This document shows positions 26,276-44,699 of a DNA stretch of 64,000 nt, piece by piece. The position numbers and the translations under genes are program-made. Position 1 is the first letter of the stretch, and the number at the start of each line of letters is the position of its first letter. The notes below the pieces were generated by a model. It searched no databases. It saw nothing but the letters and a program-made list of their open reading frames with translations, and had not been told where the DNA came from. The stretch covers positions 1 to 64,000 of the forward strand of contig PHDD01000025.1 in NCBI GenBank assembly GCA_002840905.1. Direction: 5' to 3'. The DNA is from Bacteroidetes bacterium HGW-Bacteroidetes-4 (GTDB lineage: Bacteria > Bacteroidota > Bacteroidia > Bacteroidales > SZUA-534).

Positions 26276-26354
26276 ATTAACTATTAAGGAGTTAAGGGCA
26301 ATTAAGAGGGACTCAAATACCAGTCCCTTAACTTTACTTCATTTCTTAATGGTT
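26276..26354. repeat. Family B palindromic repeat, left of GxxExxY gene 1
   Basis: Imperfect palindrome whose ends read CTATTAAGGAGTTAAGGG and TTTCTTAATGGTT, with an inner CCCTTAACT arm matching AGTTAAGGG. It lies 20 bases from the stop codon of the GxxExxY gene at 26374-26793. The same family occurs at 26851, 26935, 28259 and 32515. Confidence 0.75.
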
Positions 26355-26373
26355 CATAAAATGAAAGCAGACT

Positions 26374-26793
26374 TCATCGATCGAGAAGTTGTTTAAAGAA
26401 TTCATTAACATAGGGTTTCATCGATTTTGAAATGTTAACCACATTAAAATTGATTAATAAACCCTGGGGGTTTTGCAGCAACTTCATATAGGTCATTAAT
26501 TGGGCTTCGTGTATGGGCAGGATGCATTCAATGGCTTTTAATTCAACAATTACGGTATCGTTTACCAGTAAATCAAGACGTAAATCAGCATCAATCACAA
26601 GGTCGTCATACTTTACCGGCACTTTGAGTTGTTGCGTTACCTGATACCCGTTTTTAACCCGTTCGTATTTCAGGCATTTCTCATATACGCTTTCCAGCAG
26701 TCCCGGCCCCAGCTCACGGTGAACTTTAATGGCAAAGCCAACAACATCGTACGACAATTGCGTAACTGCGCTTTTTGTTAGGTAGGCTTGCAT
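26374..26793 (-). CDS. GxxExxY protein, PD-(D/E)XK nuclease-like (copy 1)
   Basis: A 139-residue protein of the GxxExxY family. The naming motif is seen in [15 protein letters not shown] (G-L-L-E-S-V-Y). The nuclease-like core follows: RLDLLVNDTVIVELKAIE, where the Asp and the E-x-K fit a PD-(D/E)XK active site, and then HEAQLMTYMKLL. The C-terminus is the usual GLLINFNV and PYVNEF. The family is widespread but its function is not established. The gene is bracketed by family B palindromes, 20 bases from the stop and 58 bases from the start. Confidence 0.88.
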   Translation of the reverse strand: MQAYLTKSAVTQLSYDVVGFAIKVHRELGPGLLESVYEKCLKYERVKNGYQVTQQLKVPVKYDDLVIDADLRLDLLVNDTVIVELKAIECILPIHEAQLMTYMKLLQNPQGLLINFNVVNISKSMKPYVNEFFKQLLDR

Positions 26794-26850
26794 TATTCTT
26801 TAATTTTAAAGAGAATAAAATTAAACAAACTTAAAATCCAATACAAAAAT

Positions 26851-26926
26851 AACCATTAAGGAGTTAAGGAAAATTAAGGGGCATTCAGAAAACAGCCTCT
26901 TAACTAAGCTTCATTTCTTAATGGTT
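26851..26926. repeat. Family B palindromic repeat, right of GxxExxY gene 1
   Basis: Ends read AACCATTAAGGAGTTAAGG and TTTCTTAATGGTT, the outer 10 bases being exact inverted repeats, with an inner TTAACT arm. This is the better-preserved of the two palindromes around GxxExxY gene 1. Confidence 0.78.
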
Positions 26927-26934
26927 AAAAAAAC

Positions 26935-26974
26935 AACCATTAAGGAGTTTAGGGCGATTAAGAAAGGCACATAA
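26935..26974. repeat. Half copy of family B repeat
   Basis: AACCATTAAGGAGTTTAGGG followed by GATTAAG and CACATAA. The same half-repeat plus CACATAA tail occurs at 32583-32622, in both cases just beyond the C-terminal end of a GT2 glycosyltransferase sequence. Confidence 0.65.
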
Positions 26975-27002
26975 AATAAGACAAGAAAAAAAAATCACAA
27001 GA

Positions 27003-27095
27003 ACACCCGGTTTTTTTAAACTGCTTTTGTTGCTTATATGAACTGCATGCACGAAGGGATTAAAACCGGTAACACAACAGGCTGGATAAAGCATA
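27003..27095 (-). pseudogene. Decayed C-terminal end of a GT2 glycosyltransferase
   Basis: On the minus strand one frame reads, with interrupting stops, pieces equivalent to the end of the intact GT2 at 32641-33522: a PxLxxxxxxPSxxQF stretch, ATKAV in place of AIKAF, and KNRVF at the terminus. The flanking half family B repeat is also shared. The rest of the gene is missing, and the remaining 26794-27256 sequence holds no other gene. Confidence 0.5.
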
Positions 27096-27256
27096 AAGCG
27101 CAAACCAAAAGCCACGAATGGAACGAATAAACACAATTGAATTACGCTCCGATACGCCTTAACTGCCGGTGCGTGTTTAAAAAAGCCTGGTGTTTAATTG
27201 TAATTTTAGACTGATTAAAATGTTAATTTGAGTGGTGGGTGCTTTAGTAAAATTTT

Positions 27257-27862
27257 TCAAATATGTGGAAGTATCTTTTTTTGTAAACCGGTTTTAATCT
27301 CATCCCAGGTAATTTTTTCCTTCATGACAGGCATTGGATCTGGTTCAGCATCTTCAAAATGTATCAGACTCTTTTTAACCAGAAATAAATTACCATCATC
27401 AAATTTCTCAACATAAAATCTGAATAAATCGTTGAGGGAAAAGTGTTTTAGCAGATAATAGAGGTCAATAAAATCTTTCTTGGTTCCACGTCCGGTAATG
27501 GCATTCAATTTCATCGCCCCAATATCTTTTAATGAGGCCAATCGAAAATTATCTTCTTCGATTAATTCTGAAACCCATGGATATCTGTAATTTACTATAT
27601 CAACTTTTATATTGTCGATAGACAGAACATTAATGTTTTTTGATTTTTGTAATATTACAATTGAGCCGATTAGTTCAATATTCTTTTCTTGCTTCTCAAA
27701 ATCTATCTTACCAAACAAATCAATATCAACAGATTCTCTATGCCCTATCTGTAATGCAAGCGCAGTGCCACCAACCAGCCTTAGGTCAGAAAACACATCC
27801 ATTTGCATTAATTGCGCTAATATCCGTAAAAGGTCGGGGTTGACTGCTGATTTGTATAACAT
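27257..27862 (-). CDS. AbiEii/AbiGii-like nucleotidyltransferase (putative toxin)
   Basis: A 201-residue DNA-polymerase-beta-type nucleotidyltransferase. The signature GGTALALQIGHRESVDIDLF contains the GG-T/S and the DxD metal ligands, with a third Asp in IKVDIVNYR. The C-terminal block MKLNAITGRGTKKDFIDLYYLL is typical of AbiEii-like proteins. It overlaps the upstream gene by 46 bases, so translation is probably coupled. In established type IV systems such proteins are toxins; here the pairing is with a DUF6922-like protein rather than AbiEi. Confidence 0.82.
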   Translation of the reverse strand: MLYKSAVNPDLLRILAQLMQMDVFSDLRLVGGTALALQIGHRESVDIDLFGKIDFEKQEKNIELIGSIVILQKSKNINVLSIDNIKVDIVNYRYPWVSELIEEDNFRLASLKDIGAMKLNAITGRGTKKDFIDLYYLLKHFSLNDLFRFYVEKFDDGNLFLVKKSLIHFEDAEPDPMPVMKEKITWDEIKTGLQKKILPHI

Positions 27863-28125
27863 CGAAATGATTCTTTTGGCACATTGGTAAGTAGAGACAT
27901 AAAACTAACTACTTTTGGATCCATTGAGCGGGCCGAAATAATGGCCTCTTTAATTTCATCCATAGAAAAACGGGATTTAAGCAAGTGCCAATCATTTAAT
28001 TTACCGTATTCCATTACTCTTCGAATAACGAATATTTTATGCTTCTCAAAATCCAGGGTTGCCACATCTACATCCCAAAATAGGTGCGGTGAAAAGTCTT
28101 TGGGCGATATGTTCTTGTCGTTCAT
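27817..28125 (-). CDS. DUF6922-like protein (putative antitoxin partner)
   Basis: A 102-residue protein: LFWDVDVATLDFEKHKIFVIRRVMEYG and DWHLLKSRFSMDEIKEAIISARSMDPKVVSFMSLL. This pattern is common in small Bacteroidota proteins encoded immediately before AbiEii-like nucleotidyltransferases, and I believe it corresponds to DUF6922. No DNA-binding motif is obvious. The 46-base overlap with the following gene supports a two-gene toxin-antitoxin-like unit. Confidence 0.72.
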   Translation of the reverse strand: MNDKNISPKDFSPHLFWDVDVATLDFEKHKIFVIRRVMEYGKLNDWHLLKSRFSMDEIKEAIISARSMDPKVVSFMSLLTNVPKESFRCYTNQQSTPTFYGY

Positions 28126-28258
28126 GTTTCCGGGTAGTTTTATACAAAGTTAATGAAAATATTAGCAGGGTGAAAAGTAAAATTGCCACAAAGACACTAA
28201 AACACAAAGAAAAACACTAAGGTTCCGCGCATTCGTGGCTAAAAAAGAACGGCCTGGT

Positions 28259-28360
28259 TTTCTTAATGGTTAAAATTTTAAACACACCATTAAGGAGTTA
28301 AGGGCAATTAAGAAAAAGCCTTAAATAAACCGACTGTTTTTCTTCATTGCTTAATCGTTT
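28259..28360. repeat. Family B palindromic repeat cluster
   Basis: A half element (TCTTAATGGTTAAAA) followed by a full one, CACCATTAAGGAGTTAAGGG to CATTGCTTAATCGTTT. The right end runs into the stop codon region of the broken GT4 gene. A degenerate family C-like stretch (about 28166-28246) lies just to the left. Confidence 0.65.
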
Positions 28361-29528
28361 AAAACCCGGGCCTTTATCACTTCTGCTAAAAGCTGAACCT
28401 GTTTTTTTCTTGAAAATTGTTCAGTATTTATTGAATCACAAGGCAGGTGGCCCTTTTCTTTAAATTCCCGATAAATGTTTGGCAACAGTTCAGCCAGATG
28501 CTGCGCATCCTTTACCAGATAACCCGAGCGGGTTTCCCGGATTAATTCCTCCTGAAGGGTATCGCTTAGTTGGCTATTCGGGGGAAAAGGATAATATTTC
28601 TCTTTTAAAGCCAGCGCTTCCTTATCATGGGTATAGCAAAATAAAATGGGCCGTTTTAAGGCTAAATAATCATAAATTTTCGTTCCAACAAAATGGTAAT
28701 AATTAAACAATAACAACAAGTGTTGCTGGCCAAGTTCTTTAATTAGTTGGTGATTGGGCATAGATGAAACAATTTTGACGTTCGATTCAAGCATCGGGTA
28801 TTGTTTTAAAAAACTTACTATCTCCAACTGTTTATTTATTCCAAAAAAAGAAATGTGTATCTGGCAATCATTGTTTTCTTTTAAAAAATTTAATATTACA
28901 GTCAATACGCTTCTCCAGGGGTGCCAGTCATATAAAGATCCCACAAAAGCAAGCTTCAAAACCACTGATTTCTCCGGTATTTCATTTAGGTTCTTGAAAG
29001 CATCTTCATCGTAACCATTAGTAATAATCGAAAAAGCTTTATCTTTAATTACGTTTATTATTTGCTCTTGAAAAAACTCAGATACCGTAGTAATGTGACC
29101 TACTCCCGACAAAAAATGTTTTTCAAAAAAAGTATTCCAGAGCTTCCTAAACTTATTCGGGCTACGTGAGGCACTTTGGGTCCAGGGATCGCGATAATCG
29201 GCTACCCAGGGAATGCCATTGTCCCGGCTTAATTTCGCCGCATATTTAAAGAGCACAAAAGGTTCCCCCGTAGCAATAATCGCATCGACTTTATGGGTTT
29301 TTAAATAAGCTTTTGCTCCTTTATACAAACCAACTTTTGGGCCCACAAAAAAAAGAAACTGCATCAACTCATACCAGGCTGTTATGGCTTTGCGTAACAA
29401 TCGATATTTGTTTTCTCCATACTTCAGCATAAGCCGGTTGGCCCAATTAGGCTGGTAGGGTGTCCGTATAATGGTGCCACCGAAACATAGGGTGGAAAAT
29501 CATAGGCTAATATGAGAACTTTCTTCAT
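28351..29528 (-). pseudogene. GT4-type glycosyltransferase with deleted N-terminal part
   Basis: The C-terminal 359 residues are open and look intact: ATGEPFVLFKYAAKLS, WVADYRDPWT, a GT-B fold nucleotide-sugar domain with LAFVGSLYDWHPW, and KIYDYLALKRPIL. The real N-terminus, MKKVLILAYDFPPYVSV, lies at 29528 in a different frame. After 17 codons it jumps by an internal deletion to IRTPYQPNWANRLMLKYGE, losing an estimated several dozen residues and the frame. A second fragment of the same gene is at 32178-32488. The start codon overlaps the end of the AlbA-type pseudogene (ATGA). A shortened protein starting inside (MLKYGENKY, 29430) is unlikely to be active. Confidence 0.75.
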
Positions 29529-29965
29529 TTCAGCACCTCCCAATGGCCATCTTTACGACCTCCTATTCTTGCAATAATACCTTCGCGCTTTAAATTCGAT
29601 AAATGCTCCTTTATGGTACCATCCGACTTTTGCAATAGTTGCATCAAATCCTCTTTGGTGTAAAATCAATTTTCCTTCAATAATTCAACTATACGTTCCT
29701 TTGTGGTCTTTTGGGCAGTCTTTTGGGCGGTTATTTTACCGTAAGTAACTAAAATTCCATTTTGCACTTCTTCAAAATCAAAATGAACTTCCGGATATTC
29801 TTTCATTAAATCTCTTATACGGATAAAGCCTGTGCCGTATTTTTCTATTTCGCCTTTTAAATAAAAGGCTTCAGCAATAAGAACTTTGGCATCGAAACTT
29901 TTCTTGAACTCTACTCGTTCGTTTTCGCCTTGGTTTATTAATAATTTAAGTTCCTCATTTGTCAT
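29525..29965 (-). pseudogene. AlbA_2/HATPase-type regulator, internally deleted and with an in-frame stop
   Basis: The N-terminus (LLINQGENERVEFKKSFDAKV) is the start of an AlbA_2 domain and then joins directly to the C-terminal ATPase tail (KGEIEKYGTGFIRIRDLMKEY), so a middle of a couple of hundred residues is missing. After ELLKEN a TGA (29666-29668) interrupts a frame that continues as a winged-helix tail (YTKEDLMQLLQKSDGTIKEHL to WEVLK). An intact relative lies at 40734-42086. Confidence 0.75.
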
Positions 29966-30076
29966 AGCATAAAAATACAAAACTTACCCAATAAACAAGC
30001 TATTCGTAGAGTATTAAAAATCATTTGCTAATAAACACCCAATTGGTCGTAAATTTTTAAAGAGTAAATAATTTTT

Positions 30077-30147
30077 CACCACAAAGGGCACAAAGAAGCA
30101 CAGCGTTTTGTTTTTTCTTCTTTGTTTTGCTTTGTGTTCTCTGTGGT
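30077..30147. repeat. Family C palindromic repeat
   Basis: Begins CACCACAAAGGGCACAAAG and ends CTTTGTGTTCTCTGTGGT, so the two halves form an imperfect long hairpin. Other family C copies are at 40190, 40655 and 42169. The gap 29981-30463 otherwise holds only the glycosyltransferase stub at 30184. Confidence 0.72.
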
Positions 30148-30183
30148 AAAATGTTTTGCTATCTTTACAAAAATCGCAGCAAC

Positions 30184-30237
30184 ATGACCAAAACCCTCCT
30201 CTTTTTTACAAGCAGCTACCCTTTTGGAAAGGGTTAA
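30184..30237 (+). pseudogene. N-terminal stub of a glycosyltransferase
   Basis: ATG followed by TKTLLFFTSSYPFGKG and a stop. The LLFFTSSYPFGKGE-type beginning is characteristic of GT4 glycosyltransferases of Bacteroidota exopolysaccharide loci. Nothing recognisable follows. A TATCTTTA stretch 21 bases upstream resembles a -7 promoter element. Plus-strand orientation is opposite to the surviving transferases. Confidence 0.5.
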
Positions 30238-30463
30238 GCCAAATACGCGGTATGTGTCAAGTTATCGGTATTAAGGTTTCTATTTCGTTACAAGTATTGA
30301 AAAAAAAACGCCTTGCATCGTATTTTACGCAGTTGGGTTTTTAAGTGCGACAATTATTCATACATAGCTTCGTTTTCCGTTTAGTTTTCATAATAAGCTT
30401 TTAATTTTCATAGATATTTTGTACATTTACAAAAGTAGTAGCGTCTAATTTTCACATATAAAC

Positions 30464-32011
30464 ATGAATAGCATAAGCATTTCACAAGAAGCGTCTGTTT
30501 TTCGCGGACTTGTTTTGCCCGAAAAAGGTAAGATTGTGGGTTATGCGGCACTTATCGACGTTTTTAAGCTAAAAATACCTCTTCCAAATAGAATTGCATT
30601 AATAAGTGATAAAAACAGGCAATATCAAAATGAAAATTGGAGGGTGCTTACACCAAGGCATCAACCCGAAGAGAACTTATATCGACACCTGGTTTTTGCC
30701 ATTAAATATGAAGGAATAAACCTGTTATTCTTTAAAAAACTTTTTGAAGCTATCAGTATGAACCAAGTATTGGATTTAATCCAGGAAGAGCCCACGGGGC
30801 AATACGCCCGCAAGATTTGGTTTTTATATGAATTTTTAACGCAAAAGGAACTGGAAATTTCTAATGCCGATACTAAGATCAAATTTATTAAATTGTTGGA
30901 TACTCAAATTCAGTACGGAATAGAACATGGAAAAAAATCGACCCGGCATCGTGTAATAAACAATTTATCAGGCACCTACAATTTTTGTCCATTAATATTT
31001 AAAACCCCCAAGCTTGAAAACTATATTTCACTTAATTTATCCGACAAAAAGAACGTGTACCTAAATTCTATTCATAAAGATGTGTTGCAACGGGCTTTTT
31101 CCTTTCTATTACTGAAAGACTCGAAGGCTTCATTTACAATTGAAGATGAAAATCCGGGGACAAACCGGGCATTGCGCTGGGGTAAAGCTATTGGCCAGGC
31201 AGGTTCTAAACCTCTTTCAAAGGAAGAATTAGTGCGACTACAACAAATTGTTATTGAAGACAGGCGATTTACCAACATGGGATTTCGTACCGAAGGAGGC
31301 TTTGTTGGCGAACACGACCGATTATCGGGAGACCCTATTCCCGACCATATTTCGGCACGGCATCAAGATATTGATGCTCTGATTACCGGGTTAATAAATA
31401 CCTATAATGTATTAGAAGAATCGGCCTTTCATGCGGTACTCGCGGCAGCCATAATTGCTTTTGGTTTTGTAATTATTCACCCTTTTACCGATGGCAATGG
31501 TAGAATTCATCGCTACTTAATTCATCATATTTTAGCAAAAATGCGGTTCACCCAACAGGGGATAATTTTTCCTGTGTCAGCCTCCATACTTGACCATATT
31601 GATGATTACAGAAAAGTTTTAGAAGATTTTTCACATCAAATCATGGAATATATTGAATGGGAAACCTCAACAGAAAACAATGTAAGGGTTAAAAACAACA
31701 CCATTGATTATTACCGATATTTTGATGCAACCCCTATGGCTGAATTTCTTTTTGATTGCGTTGACGATACCATTAAAAATATAATTCCGGCAGAAGTACG
31801 TTATTTACAAAAATACGATGCCTTTAAAAATTATTTAGATAATACCTTTGAAATGCCCGATAAGATGGTAGCCAATCTGGTTCGGTTTTTAGAACAAAAC
31901 GATGGGAAACTCTCAAAAAGAGCACGCGCTAAAGAATTTAAGCTGCTTAAAGAAACTGAAATTGATGAAATTGAGAACCATTTCCGACAAATACTTGCTT
32001 CCGACTTCTAA
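30464..32011 (+). CDS. Fic-domain protein (putative protein AMPylase)
   Basis: A 515-residue protein with a complete Fic active-site motif, His339 in HPFTDGNGRIHR, in the context AFGFVIIHPFTDGNGR. Fic enzymes with this motif transfer AMP from ATP to Ser/Thr/Tyr of target proteins. The N-terminal 200 residues are a helical region (EEPTGQYARKIWFLYEF) and the C-terminal 130 resemble a helical/winged-helix extension; an inhibitory S/TxxxE motif was not identified. It is a lone gene in the decayed region, between a family C repeat and a GT4 fragment, and looks acquired. Confidence 0.85.
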   Translation: MNSISISQEASVFRGLVLPEKGKIVGYAALIDVFKLKIPLPNRIALISDKNRQYQNENWRVLTPRHQPEENLYRHLVFAIKYEGINLLFFKKLFEAISMNQVLDLIQEEPTGQYARKIWFLYEFLTQKELEISNADTKIKFIKLLDTQIQYGIEHGKKSTRHRVINNLSGTYNFCPLIFKTPKLENYISLNLSDKKNVYLNSIHKDVLQRAFSFLLLKDSKASFTIEDENPGTNRALRWGKAIGQAGSKPLSKEELVRLQQIVIEDRRFTNMGFRTEGGFVGEHDRLSGDPIPDHISARHQDIDALITGLINTYNVLEESAFHAVLAAAIIAFGFVIIHPFTDGNGRIHRYLIHHILAKMRFTQQGIIFPVSASILDHIDDYRKVLEDFSHQIMEYIEWETSTENNVRVKNNTIDYYRYFDATPMAEFLFDCVDDTIKNIIPAEVRYLQKYDAFKNYLDNTFEMPDKMVANLVRFLEQNDGKLSKRARAKEFKLLKETEIDEIENHFRQILASDF

Positions 32012-32177
32012 CTTCCGACTTTTCAACCACTAATGAAACAGGGCGAGACAGATGCAAAGCAATTACCGCTTTTATGAACGTTCTGTGCTATTTTTTAACC
32101 ACAGAGAGCTCAGAAAAGCCACAAAGCAAAATATAAAACCAATATTAGAAAGCTAGCAATACCTTCAGTCGCAAATA

Positions 32178-32488
32178 TTACAGTACTAAAGGTTCCCCTG
32201 TAGCAATAATAGCATCCACCGGATGGGTTTTTAAATAAGCTTTTGCTCCTTTATACAAGCCCGCTTTTGGGCCCACAAAAAAAAGAAACTGCATCAACTC
32301 ATACCATGCTGTTATGGCTTTGCGTAGCAATCGATATTTGTTTTCTCCATACTTCAGCATAAGCCGGTTGGCCCAATTAGGCTGGTAGGGTGTCCGTATA
32401 ATGGTGGCTTATACCACGAATACGGGCGTAAACCCCCAACCGAAACATAGGGGGGAAAATCGTAGGCCAGGATAAGGACTTTTTTCAT
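32178..32488 (-). pseudogene. Second fragment of the GT4 glycosyltransferase (5' part)
   Basis: About 310 bases closely matching 29240-29528. It reads MKKVLILAYDFPPYVSVGGLRPYSWYK, then a frame change, then IRTPYQPNWANRLMLKYGE to VDAIIATGEPLVL, where the similarity stops. It keeps 32 or so bases that the other copy lacks, but shares the same right-hand junction (CACCATTATACGG). Both ends of the gene are therefore damaged; it cannot encode a working enzyme. Confidence 0.8.
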
Positions 32489-32514
32489 CATTAGTATAAA
32501 TAAAAACCAAAGTT

Positions 32515-32622
32515 AACCATTAAGGTGAATCCCTGAATAAAACGGCTTAACTTATCTTAATTTCTTAATGGTTTTAAACGAGAACCATTAAGGAGTTAAG
32601 GAAAATTAAGAGAGACACATAA
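32515..32622. repeat. Family B palindromic repeat plus half copy
   Basis: One element from AACCATTAAGGTGAATCCC to TTTCTTAATGGTT (32515-32575), then a half copy AACCATTAAGGAGTTAAGG with CACATAA tail (32583-32622). It separates the GT4 fragment from the GT2 gene at 32641. Confidence 0.72.
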
Positions 32623-40189: not shown

Positions 40190-40256
40190 CACCACAGAGA
40201 ACACAGAGAAACTCAGCGTTCTTTTTTTTTTCAGTGCTCTTTGTGTACTTTGTGGT
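40190..40256. repeat. Family C palindromic repeat, left of GxxExxY gene 2
   Basis: CACCACAGAGAACACAGAG to CTTTGTGTACTTTGTGGT, an imperfect long hairpin. It ends 9 bases before the stop codon of the GxxExxY gene at 40266. Confidence 0.78.
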
Positions 40257-40265
40257 TATAGCATG

Positions 40266-40640
40266 TTAAATTACTCTTCTCACTATCCCGTCTTTCAACA
40301 ACTTCACATTAAAATTAATTAATAGTCCCAGCTTTTTACCGGATAATTTCATATAGGTCAGCAATTGAGCTTCATGAATTGGCAATAGGCTATCCACCGA
40401 TTTTAACTCAACAATTACCTCATTTCCGACCAACAAATCAATCCGATATCCGGCATCTAACTTAATAGAATTATAAATAACGGGCAAGGCTTTTTGACGT
40501 TCGGCTATAATTCCTTTTTGAATTAACTCGTACTCAAGACAAACCTCATAGGTGCTTTCCAACAAGCCCGGTCCCAATTCCTGATGTACTTTTATAGCAC
40601 AACCGATAATTTCGTGACTTAAGTGATTTAAATAATCCAT
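40266..40640 (-). CDS. GxxExxY protein, PD-(D/E)XK nuclease-like (copy 2)
   Basis: A 124-residue GxxExxY family protein: [27 protein letters not shown] (G-L-L-E-S-T-Y), the nuclease-like core [18 protein letters not shown] (Asp and E-x-K), then [23 protein letters not shown]. It differs substantially from copy 1 at 26374, so this is not a recent duplication. Family C palindromes stand 9 bases from its stop and 14 bases from its start. It lies between the Wzt-like ATPase and the AlbA-type regulator, inside a polysaccharide operon. Confidence 0.88.
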
Positions 40641-40654
40641 GTTTCGTCTTTTTT

Positions 40655-40715
40655 CACCACGGAGAGCACAGCGTTAAATACATTTTTTCCTGTGTGCTTT
40701 GTGATCTCTTGTGGT
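40655..40715. repeat. Family C palindromic repeat, right of GxxExxY gene 2
   Basis: CACCACGGAGAGCACAGCG to GTGCTTTGTGATCTCTTGTGGTG; the ends CACCAC and GTGGTG are exact inverted repeats. It ends 18 bases before the next gene. Confidence 0.75.
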
Positions 40716-40733
40716 GCATTCTTTTTTGTGAAT

Positions 40734-42168: not shown

Positions 42169-42275
42169 CACCAAGGAGAACACTGAGGACACAGAGTTAT
42201 TTGTTTTTCTCTGTGCTCTCTGTGTTCTTTGTGGTTATAGCATGTTACATTACTCACCTCACTATCCCTTCTTAC
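42169..42275. repeat. Family C palindrome carrying the tail of a lost GxxExxY gene
   Basis: Palindrome CACCAAGGAGAACACTGAG to CTGTGTTCTTTGTGGT (42169-42235), followed by about 37 bases nearly identical to the region just past the 40190-40256 copy. On the minus strand this matches the last codons of GxxExxY gene 2 (GIVRRVI), here with changes. No other part of a GxxExxY gene remains. An apparent 69-codon frame over this repeat (ENTEDTELFVFLCALCVLCG) is only repeat sequence. Confidence 0.7.
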
Positions 42276-42526
42276 CATAAGACATTTTAAAAACGAATGC
42301 TAAGATACGAAGGTTTTAAGAAAGTTCTGGTGGTTTTTGATGGGTTCCCTTTTACTTTATGGAACCATCCCAAAATAATTTCAAATATTCGTAAGTTAAC
42401 AAGTAAAAAAATTATTCAGAGATTAAATTTAAAACGCTTACTGCAAAAAGACCTTCACATCGAAAGAAGAAATGCTCAGTGTTGCCCTACCAAAGGCAGG
42501 TTTACCGACAATGGATTGGCAGGTTT

Positions 42527-42760
42527 GTGTGCTCAAGCAACATCGTTGCGGGTGGTTAAAGAAAATTCACCACAAAGACCACAAAGTATCACAAAGATTT
42601 TCTTTCCCGATAAAAGCCCGACGCTTTCTGTCGAACAAGCAAAATTGATTAAAATAATTTGCTGGCGTCCTAAACCAAAGGTTGCCCTAAAACAAACCAA
42701 ATAACGAATTCTCTAAGGCCTCTGTGTGCTCTAGCGACACTGTCGCGAGTGGTGTATCAT
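42527..42760 (+). repeat. Family A long repeat, copy A (left of the AbiE pair)
   Basis: About 230 bases: hairpin GCAAC-ATC-GTTGC with GGGTGGT, a CACCACAAAG block, a unique middle, a CTCTGTGTGCTCT block, then hairpin GCGAC-ACT-GTCGC with GAGTGGTG. It is clearly homologous, in the same orientation, to 44439-44667. An apparent reading frame at 42297-42704 runs across it and is not a gene. The rest of 42276-42526 shows nothing recognisable. Confidence 0.75.
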
Positions 42761-42793
42761 ATTTCCAACCAGGAACAAAACTCCCTATAAATA

Positions 42794-43567
42794 TTACAAA
42801 GCCTGCTTTATATATTGCTCAAACAGCAACAGGGTTTTTATATCGTCTGCTTTAAATAAAAACGGTTTCACATCATTTGCCATTGTTGACAAATTTATTA
42901 CATCAAGTTCTGCAAGTACCCGCTGTTTCAGTTCGGTCCTGTTTTTAATGCCCAATTTCTGATTTAAGTAAATATAATTTGGCGAAGTGTGCTTTAAAAG
43001 AAATACTACATCATAAAAATCGCGTCCTTTTTTTTGCTTTCGGTTAATTAATGCAAAAAGCTTCTGCGATAGTAATATATCGATTGGTGTGGTATTGATT
43101 GAAGTAAATACATCAAATTTATTAAGAATCACCGGTTCAGGCTGAAAATCAAAACGCTGCGGCTCCGTATCCAGCTGGATAAGTATTTTACCTTCTTTAT
43201 GCCCACTTAGATTTTGATCATAAAGTAATCCGGGAAATTTTATATAACAATGAAAAGCTCCGGCTATCACTTGTTTTACTTCTACCTAGTAGCCCTGTAG
43301 CGTCAGCTTGCTTTTAACCAGGGAACCGATTGCTGAAAATTCATCTTCTGACAGTTGAAAATTATCAAAGTCCAAATCTTCTGAAAAGCGCATATTACCA
43401 TGAATAATTCGCAAGCATGTTCCGCCTAAAAAACACAGCCGGCTGGCGTAGCTGCTTTCAAAAATTATCTCAAGTATTTTATATTGCAAATATTGCCGCA
43501 ACAAAAAGCTCCCAAACCCATGCAGGCTGGGATGATAAAAGCGCTGTATCTGGTTAAGGCTAAGCAT
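42794..43567 (-). pseudogene. AbiEii-type nucleotidyltransferase toxin broken by an amber codon
   Basis: Two open pieces in the same frame are separated only by a TAG (43286-43288). The first has CFLGGTCLRIIHGNMRFSEDLDFDNF, the nucleotidyltransferase signature (GG-T and DLDFD). The second continues without a gap (VEVKQVIAGAFHCYIKFPG) and includes the family block LLSQKLFALINRKQKKGRDFYDVVFLL. Together they would make a normal-sized protein of about 257 residues. The codon after LTLQGY was probably Glu, Lys or Gln before the mutation. It overlaps its AbiEi partner by 8 bases. Confidence 0.85.
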
Positions 43568-44195
43568 CCAAATAGTTTATTAGTAATTTAGTTTTTTTTA
43601 ACAAGACTTTGGAATTGAACTGCTTCGCATAACTTAGCAGGGTATCTCGATTAATTTGTTCATTAATAAGCGGCTTAGAAAAGCGAAAGGATACGATATC
43701 AGCTACCGTATTAATATTTTTCTGAAAGTATAAAAAATCGAGCAGCGCTTTCTCCGGTTCGGCTATTTTAAACAATTTGTTGGTATGCTCTTCTAAAGAA
43801 TACCCAAAAAATGCCGCTGGTTTTACCGATTTGTAAATAAAGGTTCCCAGAGGGGCAGAAAAATTATTGGTTTTTAAAGTACTTATGGAAGTAGTACTAA
43901 ACGTGCCTTCAGGAATAAACCCATAGTGCGACAAGGCCGATTCCATGCTAATGTACGAAGGAGCATAAATTCGGTTGGCAACCAGAAAATTAAACGTTTC
44001 ATTCCGATTGTCATCAGAAAAACAATACCATCCACTGCGTATTTTTTGCAAATACCCTTTCTTTTGCCAGCGAATTAAATTCATTTTATTAAATCGCGGC
44101 ATCCGCTTTTCAATTTCGTGAATTGAAAAAGTGGGGTAATCATTAAATGCCTTTTTAAATTCCAGAAACAACATTTCATTTCTATTTATATACAA
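43560..44195 (-). CDS. AbiEi-type antitoxin
   Basis: A 211-residue protein of the AbiEi family: an N-terminal winged helix (FSIHEIEKRMPRFNKMNLIRWQKKGYLQKIRSGWYCFSD) and a C-terminal antitoxin domain (ISMESALSHYGFIPEGTFSTTSIST, then EPEKALLDFLYF). In type IV AbiE systems it both represses the operon and opposes the AbiEii toxin. Here it is intact, whereas the adjoining toxin frame is interrupted. The pair lies between two copies of the family A long repeat. Confidence 0.85.
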   Translation of the reverse strand: MYINRNEMLFLEFKKAFNDYPTFSIHEIEKRMPRFNKMNLIRWQKKGYLQKIRSGWYCFSDDNRNETFNFLVANRIYAPSYISMESALSHYGFIPEGTFSTTSISTLKTNNFSAPLGTFIYKSVKPAAFFGYSLEEHTNKLFKIAEPEKALLDFLYFQKNINTVADIVSFRFSKPLINEQINRDTLLSYAKQFNSKVLLKKTKLLINYLDA

Positions 44196-44261
44196 ATATA
44201 GTTGTTTTTAGAAATAAAATCCCAAAACATCCTTCCGATCTTATGAAAACGCTGCGTTTGT

Positions 44262-44345
44262 GTGCTCAAGCGACACCGTCGCGGGTGATGGAAAACAATG
44301 CACCACAAAGGTCACAGAGTATCACAAAGATTTCTAAACATCATA
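44262..44345 (+). repeat. Family A partial repeat
   Basis: GTGCTCAAGCGACACCGTCG with hairpin GCGAC-ACC-GTCGC (44270-44282), then a GTGATGG, CACCACAAAG and ATCACAAAG block, matching the left part of the two long copies and then diverging. Confidence 0.65.
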
Positions 44346-44438
44346 AACGTACTTCCTATGAATCCGCCATGTGCAATTCACCCAATTGCTTAAAAGATAC
44401 CTTTTACTTCGACAAAATTTTTTCTCTGTGTTGCTTAG

Positions 44439-44699
44439 TGTGCTTTAGCAACGCAGTTGCGGGTGGTTAAAGAAAATTCACCACAAAGGTCACAGCGTAT
44501 CACAAAGTTTTTCTTTCCCGATAAAAGTCCAACTCTTTCTGTCGAATAAGCAAGTTTGGCTAAATTAATTTGCCTGCTTCCTAAACCCAAGGTTGCCCTA
44601 AAACAAACCAAATAAAGTATTCTCTGTGGGCCTCTGTGCGCTTTAGCAACGCGGTGCGGGTGGTAAAACTTTTTTCTAAACAACATCGTTGCGGGTGGT
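44439..44699 (+). repeat. Family A long repeat, copy B, plus an extra hairpin
   Basis: Direct repeat of 42527-42760. The left hairpin is GCAAC-GCA-GTTGC (44448-44460), the middle carries the shared CTTTCCCGATAAAAG and GGTTGCCCTAAAACAAACC blocks, and the right hairpin GCAAC-GCG-GTGC is missing one base (44646-44657). A further hairpin ACAAC-ATC-GTTGC with GGGTGGT follows (44680-44699). No gene lies in 44196-44711. Confidence 0.75.

Follow-up and report, generated by a model that had tools for sequence, protein, structure and literature searches.

The question raised by this locus is whether a small nuclease-like gene and the palindromes on either side of it constitute a single genetic unit. 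In the window, by which we mean the whole 64,000-nt stretch of DNA analysed, GxxExxY gene 1 is bracketed by two copies of one palindrome, family B, and GxxExxY gene 2 is bracketed by copies of a different palindrome, family A, both as proposed in the original prediction, which had been made from the letters alone (Table 1). That prediction had gone on to suggest a gene-plus-palindrome unit and, by analogy with REP/RAYT systems, a protein that mobilises or maintains its repeats. Gene-repeat partnerships are known from HUH transposases and REPs.

Table 1. Positions of GxxExxY genes, palindromes, and related features in the window (plain coordinates) and in other genomes (coordinates with locus or genome names)
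Feature	Position	Strand	Basis or detail
GxxExxY gene 1, PD-(D/E)XK nuclease, 139 aa	26374-26793	-	Profile matches; E34, D74, E84, K86 present
Family B palindrome, 3′ of gene 1	26279-26354		AACTATTAAGGAGTTAAGG...CTTAATGGTT; 19 bases past stop
Family B palindrome, 5′ of gene 1	26851-26926		AACCATTAAGGAGTTAAGG...CTTAATGGTT; 57 bases ahead of start
Family B half-arm, abutting upstream palindrome	26935-26962		Word match
Two family B half-arms, back to back	28262-28311		Word match
Two family B half-arms, back to back	32546-32612		Word match
Gene-less family B palindrome, another family of the same order	L372:881-979 (G028:C255)		Sequence match
GxxExxY gene 2, 124 aa, 52% identity to gene 1	40266-40640	-	Sequence comparison
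Family A (CACAGAG/CACAAAG) palindrome, 3′ of gene 2	~40190-40258		Repeat comparison, folding
Family A palindrome, 5′ of gene 2	~40655-40716		Flank reading, folding
Remnant: family A arm with the final ~36 nt of a GxxExxY-like gene, 5′-truncated	42201-42280	-	85% identity to 40222-40301
Family A palindrome without GxxExxY gene	30077-30147		Repeat/word match
Genus g33 slot in G488: clade-A left arm, then 1.9 kb insert	L428 (G488:C1:1896620-1898820)		Sequence reading
23S_rRNA_IVP four-helix-bundle genes, often in palindrome loops, away from rRNA genes	L098:107-482, L121:215-599, L130:5552-6050, L148:4966-5329, L342-L371, L222		

Gene 1 encodes a GxxExxY protein of PD-(D/E)XK-like type, as predicted: in profile searches it matches TIGR04256 with 136.1 bits (cut-off 35) and PF13366 (PDDEXK_3) with 131.3 bits (cut-off 22). 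The NCBI model name for the family is only 'GxxExxY protein', and none of its members is known to us to have had its activity assayed. Glu34, Asp74, Glu84, and Lys86, the catalytic residues of the PD-(D/E)XK superfamily, are present all together in 207 of 209 aligned proteins, and the median dN/dS is 0.073 (32 of 47 close pairs). The low dN/dS and the retained residues point to selection on the protein, probably for an enzymatic function. The predicted structure of the gene 1 protein (pLDDT 90, pTM 0.83) has a compact PD-(D/E)XK fold, and no PDB chain matches the protein by sequence. Structural comparison with VIA-align places SSO0001, a Cas4 protein, in the best rows (Z 8.9, rmsd 4.1, 102 aligned), together with restriction-type folds at Z ~8; lower down is Hjc resolvase (Z 6.7, rmsd 3.3, 87 aligned), at a level, Z <8, that may reflect a common arrangement only. 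The best Foldseek matches are LHK-Exo, SSO0001, and lambda exonuclease (best E-value 5.6e-3). Cas4 profiles give weak matches only, and PADLOC reports weak Cas4 similarity in 40 of 50 members. The structural model supports a nuclease of the broad Cas4/lambda-exonuclease/Hjc class, and no more specific assignment.

The family is present in 152 of 296 sampled Bacteroidota genomes (149 above the cut-off), with up to 12 copies per genome; a scan of viral contigs with the gene 1 protein found no relative. For flank analysis we used 216 non-identical loci (4 of 220 were removed as identical; L060 and L093, which carry an identical gene and probably come from one genome, were both kept), among them the closest 80 of 581 public-genome relatives, picked for similarity to one clade, and 100 further loci drawn from the top of the family listing for the 296 genomes. 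With phyla partly assigned by record title, the closest 80 include members of Bacteroidota, Ignavibacteria, Cyanobacteria, Planctomycetota, Acidobacteriota, and Chloroflexi. Within 110 nt of the gene, flanks were searched for arms paired in inverted or in direct orientation and for local palindromes, with positions at 170-280 nt as the far control, and 3 of 216 loci were left out for short flanks. A signal is present in 178 of 213 loci near the gene, as compared with 17 of 209 in far flanks and 8 of 213 after shuffling. In particular, inverted arm pairs alone exceed the 99th percentile of shuffled sequence in 143 of 213 loci (far, 5 of 209), direct pairs are present in 67 of 213 (far, 13 of 209), and local palindromes in 64 of 213 (far, 6 of 209); 35 of the 213 loci have no signal in any of the three tests. 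An equal spread of palindromes, which the original prediction had named as its refutation, is thus not observed; they are enriched around GxxExxY genes.

The usual layout has the gene in the loop, with the left arm before the start codon and the right arm after the stop, so that the gene generally sits inside its palindrome and not next to it, a tighter link than predicted. Specifically, where the arms align above threshold (137 loci), the aligned part has a median length of 40 nt, and the arms lie a median of 16 nt from the start codon and 3 nt from the stop; the unit, estimated from gene and arm lengths, is usually ~450-500 bp, as compared with ~650 in the window, where a complete palindrome on either side of the gene represents a minority form among the loci analysed. 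A strict gapped alignment of upstream with downstream flanks lacked sensitivity, placing 17 of 40 loci past the 99% point of mismatched pairs. Against a neighbouring-ORF control (1 of 120 loci left out for short flanks), 73 of 119 loci pass the 95th percentile, versus 11 of 206, and only 10 of 119 pass the 99th, in part because the top-scoring 'controls' include several that are units themselves (another GxxExxY gene, IVP genes). At one locus (L187, G001:C40:67837-69238) the GxxExxY gene is apparently interrupted by ~1 kb of other sequence.

Empty sites in relatives, which the original prediction had proposed to look for, are present at each of four slots that we compared, with neighbour genes named by eye. 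The phoH-purC-like slot (20 genomes searched, 12 read) is filled in G001 and G003, carries a frameshifted gene in G004, and is empty in the window genome (G000) and in G002, G008, and G009, where spacers of 29-90 nt contain neither gene nor palindrome; the remaining five genomes read have no GxxExxY gene there. The leuC-leuD slot (101 genomes searched, 10 read) is filled in G229 and empty in G383, G364, and G428, which are three species of the same genus and have flanks 87-91% identical; in G408, another species of that genus, it is occupied by a four-helix-bundle gene with a different palindrome around it, and in G427, of another genus, by a CACGGAG palindrome without a gene. The scpA-scpB-like slot (8 genomes) is filled in G093, G139, G065, and G202, empty in G214, G108, and G104, and in G077 retains the arms around a gutted gene. 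In the genus g33 slot (199 genomes), 26 genomes have one unbroken match of at least 944 of 1151 bases, i.e. across the unit; among 20 more chosen by gap size, 5 are empty and 13 carry a GxxExxY gene that best matches another clade (64-71% identity to L285), with the words CACGAATT, CACGGATT, or CACAGATT in the 8 of these 13 that were read. On the simplest reading of these sequences, the slot would have been filled at least twice. The same slot contains a remnant and another repeat in G474; in G488, the insert behind the clade-A arm, at the place taken by GxxExxY in relatives, has two open frames, one of them ATPase-like (438 codons) and the other of 163 codons. By eye, neither a target-site duplication nor a reaction intermediate can be made out at the four slots, even at 87-91% flank identity, the spacers being too diverged for confident alignment, and the empty sites could be losses. 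The unit is gained or lost as a block; its arms track the protein, and the words track the gene.

The arms are built of short words (CACAGAG, CACGAATT, and others) placed ~10 bp apart. With a degenerate word, [CT][AG]CN[AG]A[GT], which like the other patterns used was chosen after reading some of the same loci, spacings of 9-10 nt predominate (127 and 195 cases), and a further peak lies at 19-22 nt (208 loci, 8 of 216 being left out for short flanks). This word is ~4.6 times denser near the gene than far from it (980 versus 215 matches in 416 windows each); sense-strand words peak 20-60 nt ahead of the start codon, and antisense words 0-40 nt past the stop. A spacing of one word per helical turn suggests a protein that would read one face of the DNA.

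Palindrome family and protein clade go together, in a test that the original prediction had proposed. For pairs among 112 loci whose neighbourhoods give no tblastx match, the arm alignment score rises from 17.4 at protein identity 0.2-0.4 (n=543) to 28.4 at 0.7-0.8 (n=364) and 39.5 above 0.8 (n=5), and far flanks of the same locus pairs score 14.6-15.7 throughout. Across 21162 pairs of 209 loci (7 of 216 being left out for short flanks), near words give a Spearman correlation with protein similarity of 0.186 (after label permutation, a mean of -0.001 with sd 0.024), and far words one of -0.018. The effect of clade is small per pair, yet specific to the arms, and arm sequence tracks protein clade even across unrelated neighbourhoods.

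Within the window, the two family B copies at gene 1 are 80% identical across 87 nt in direct orientation and, folded as single-stranded DNA, give -9.3 kcal/mol (z -2.20) and -12.3 kcal/mol (z -3.75). The sequence CATTAAGGAGTTAAGG occurs, with at most 2 mismatches, 5 times in the 64-kb window, versus 0.01 expected from 100 dinucleotide shuffles. Genome-wide (4.32 Mb), the family B word has 7 sites with at most 1 mismatch, 5 of which lie at 26282-32601, a 6.3 kb stretch that includes gene 1; with at most 2 mismatches it has 10 sites, and sites outside the window may be chance, because a reversed control pattern also has 10. With 5 of 7 sites clustered and no genome-wide excess, family B is therefore a local partner of gene 1 and not a genome-wide repeat. 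By eye, CCATTAAG of family B may be taken for a variant of CCACTAAG. The half-arms in Table 1, which were absent from the original prediction, part successive segments of 26935-32612, as if punctuating a small island; the segments between them contain, with names given by eye, an AbiEii-like gene pair (27257-28125), a glycosyltransferase, and a Fic-like gene. A 225-nt direct duplication (29252-29476 and 32182-32406, 94% identity) is also present in this region.

The window genome has seven GxxExxY genes, each with different flanking words when read by eye: CACAAAG; CACGAATT (L002, downstream side only); CACAGAG/CACTAAG; CCACAAATA; CCATTAAG; a weak AATTCGCAAATTT pair; and GCGGATTTTCACTGATT. Each of the seven genes passes one or more of the three flank tests, L002 barely, and at L003 the gene sits within one palindrome. 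The genome contains 21 CACARAG word-pair places; by coordinates, 4 of the 13 that were listed individually are in GxxExxY gene arms and 9 are elsewhere, 2 of the latter lying in the remnant at 42.2 kb. At 42521-44666, a further gene pair (42794-44195, by eye AbiE-like) lies between repeats that combine GTGTGCTCAAGCAACATCGTTGCGGGTGG with CACAAAG arms.

Palindromes without a GxxExxY gene (the gene-less family A copy in the window and those in G028 and G427), different clades in one slot, and related units in unrelated neighbourhoods all argue against an immobile regulatory, defence, or addiction module, whose words would be operators for GxxExxY or a partner, and whose presence and absence would arise from horizontal transfer through recombination between conserved neighbours. 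We regard such a module as unlikely, even with helically phased words that resemble operator arrays, strong purifying selection on the gene, and the weak similarity to Cas4 in PADLOC on its side.

The number of words in a genome follows the gene. At least 3 CACARAG word pairs are present in 78 of 152 genomes with GxxExxY versus 4 of 144 without, and at least 10 in 40 versus 0 (296 genomes), counts that ignore phylogeny, related genomes not being independent and p-values thus unreliable. In total, genomes with the gene have 1281 pairs and those without it 60 (reversed control pattern, 72 versus 29), and word pairs correlate with GxxExxY copy number (rank correlation 0.68). The units' own arms account for ~255 of the 1281 pairs, about a fifth (0.48 pairs per gene, from 125 genes, times 531 genes). 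In G163 and G230 the word pairs lie mostly on one strand (8 versus 55; 0 versus 17), which hints at tandem arrays.

Y1 transposases are relevant here, as a RAYT/IS200-type enzyme could mobilise the palindromes in trans with GxxExxY as cargo, an arrangement for which REPtrons are a known precedent (PMC3733652). Among GxxExxY-bearing genomes, at least 3 word pairs are indeed found in 75 of 131 with Y1_Tnp versus 3 of 21 without; these three, however, have words without Y1_Tnp, and Y1_Tnp genomes that lack GxxExxY reach this number in only 3 of 79 cases. Moreover, with a broader word than that of the co-occurrence count, none of 20 Y1_Tnp genes from word-rich genomes has a word pair within 400 nt, versus 54 of 99 GxxExxY genes (100-locus set), and cargo status alone does not explain clade-specific arms. 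Mobilisation by such an enzyme therefore strikes us as quite improbable.

A second protein family has a similar setting. Flanks of 23S_rRNA_IVP genes (PF05635, the protein family of rRNA intervening sequences, IVS) carry a signal in 22 of 30 loci, versus 5 of 30 in far flanks and 2 of 30 after shuffling, and their palindromes have, by eye, periodic words of their own, of 7-9 nt. One such gene occupies, in G408, the leuC-leuD slot that holds a GxxExxY unit elsewhere. PMC4990558 describes the Coxiella IVS as a selfish element of 428 nt whose terminal stem measures 28 bp and whose loop carries an ORF, and states that the functionality and origin of rRNA IVS are still unclear >25 years after discovery.

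Orientation and arm mismatches bear on whether the arms act as RNA or as DNA. In the first 120 loci, some of them orthologous and hence not all independent, 102 have neighbours within 350 nt on both sides, and the GxxExxY gene is in sense in 78 of 84 co-directional neighbour pairs; among control adjacent ORF pairs, 202 of 277 are co-directional. Mismatches between arms comprise 199 G.U and 238 A.C (p=0.069), leaning away from a G.U excess, which favours recognition as DNA. The least probable explanation in our estimation is an RNA-level one on the pattern of the 23S rRNA IVS, in which the arms would anneal within the transcript, the resulting hairpin would be trimmed by RNase III, and mRNAs would tolerate the unit: the ORF in an inverted-repeat loop, the sense orientation, and the IVS-encoded IVP proteins in similar palindromes would fit, but a selected RNA hairpin should favour G.U over A.C, and the sites read lie between protein-coding genes.

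We favour, with slightly better than even confidence in the explanation as a whole, nuclease action included, the reading that a GxxExxY gene, together with the arms on either side of it, makes up a single compact unit of selfish DNA. The protein would recognise the phased words as DNA, either as duplex or as extruded cruciform, and would cut there; cutting would lead to copying of the unit into another intergenic slot or, by homing-like repair, into a gene-less palindrome; alternatively, host recombination may spread the unit. Gene-less palindromes would be by-products or decayed units, and the strong sense bias inside operons might come from a need for read-through transcription or from the removal of antisense copies by selection. 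More tentatively, and as a possibility that we would not call probable, there may be a nuclease-only class of mobile DNA, in which a small PD-(D/E)XK protein recognises the helically phased words of the arms around its gene, cleaves there, and spreads gene and gene-less palindromes over several phyla, with IVP genes as a second independent class and the rRNA IVS as a special case of an 'ORF in a palindrome' lifestyle.

A literature search on GxxExxY and PF13366/PDDEXK_3/TIGR04256, with preprints and most subscription journals outside its scope, found nothing tying the family to palindromes; PMC8934634 mentions GxxExxY. The association of abundant intergenic palindromes with GxxExxY genes gives both a testable role. 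If the proposed reading is true, a PD-(D/E)XK enzyme joins the gene-repeat partnerships, and the result bears on why rRNA IVS carry an ORF in a hairpin.

Among known systems, insertion sequences share with the GxxExxY unit the inverted repeats at both ends. Cas4, lambda-type exonucleases, and Hjc are the nearest solved folds, and the GxxExxY unit holds no other gene. Rpn/transposase_31 nucleases, which are PD-(D/E)XK members, are likewise a nuclease family. They are linked to horizontal transfer (PMC5350276, PMC10327210), but they are a different family (Pfam PF04754), and the opening lines of the two abstracts do not mention palindromic arms. The rRNA IVS with an S23/IVP ORF is, according to PMC4990558, a selfish element of ~430 nt that likewise ends in inverted repeats and carries a small ORF in its loop; GxxExxY units, in contrast, lie between protein-coding genes (at the four slots, with genes named by eye), encode another protein family, and have no G.U excess. 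REP/RAYT (REPtron) and TIRtron systems of HUH/Y1 type, as described in PMC3733652, also combine a small gene with palindromes or inverted repeats on its flanks, have repeat families that lack the gene but are tied to it, and can have several gene types, each with different repeats, in a genome. Unlike REP/RAYT, the unit has as its only gene a PD-(D/E)XK rather than an HUH/Y1 enzyme, arms that are arrays of words with ~10-nt period rather than GTAG-tagged hairpins, and a gene placed between arms that almost touch start and stop. The predicted analogy with REP/RAYT holds for the dependence of repeats on the gene, as an association, and not for the enzyme; nor do the 20 Y1 genes carry these word pairs. 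The unit departs from REP/RAYT and from the rRNA IVS in a tested defining feature of each; it looks like an undescribed kind of selfish element, whose way of life resembles both.
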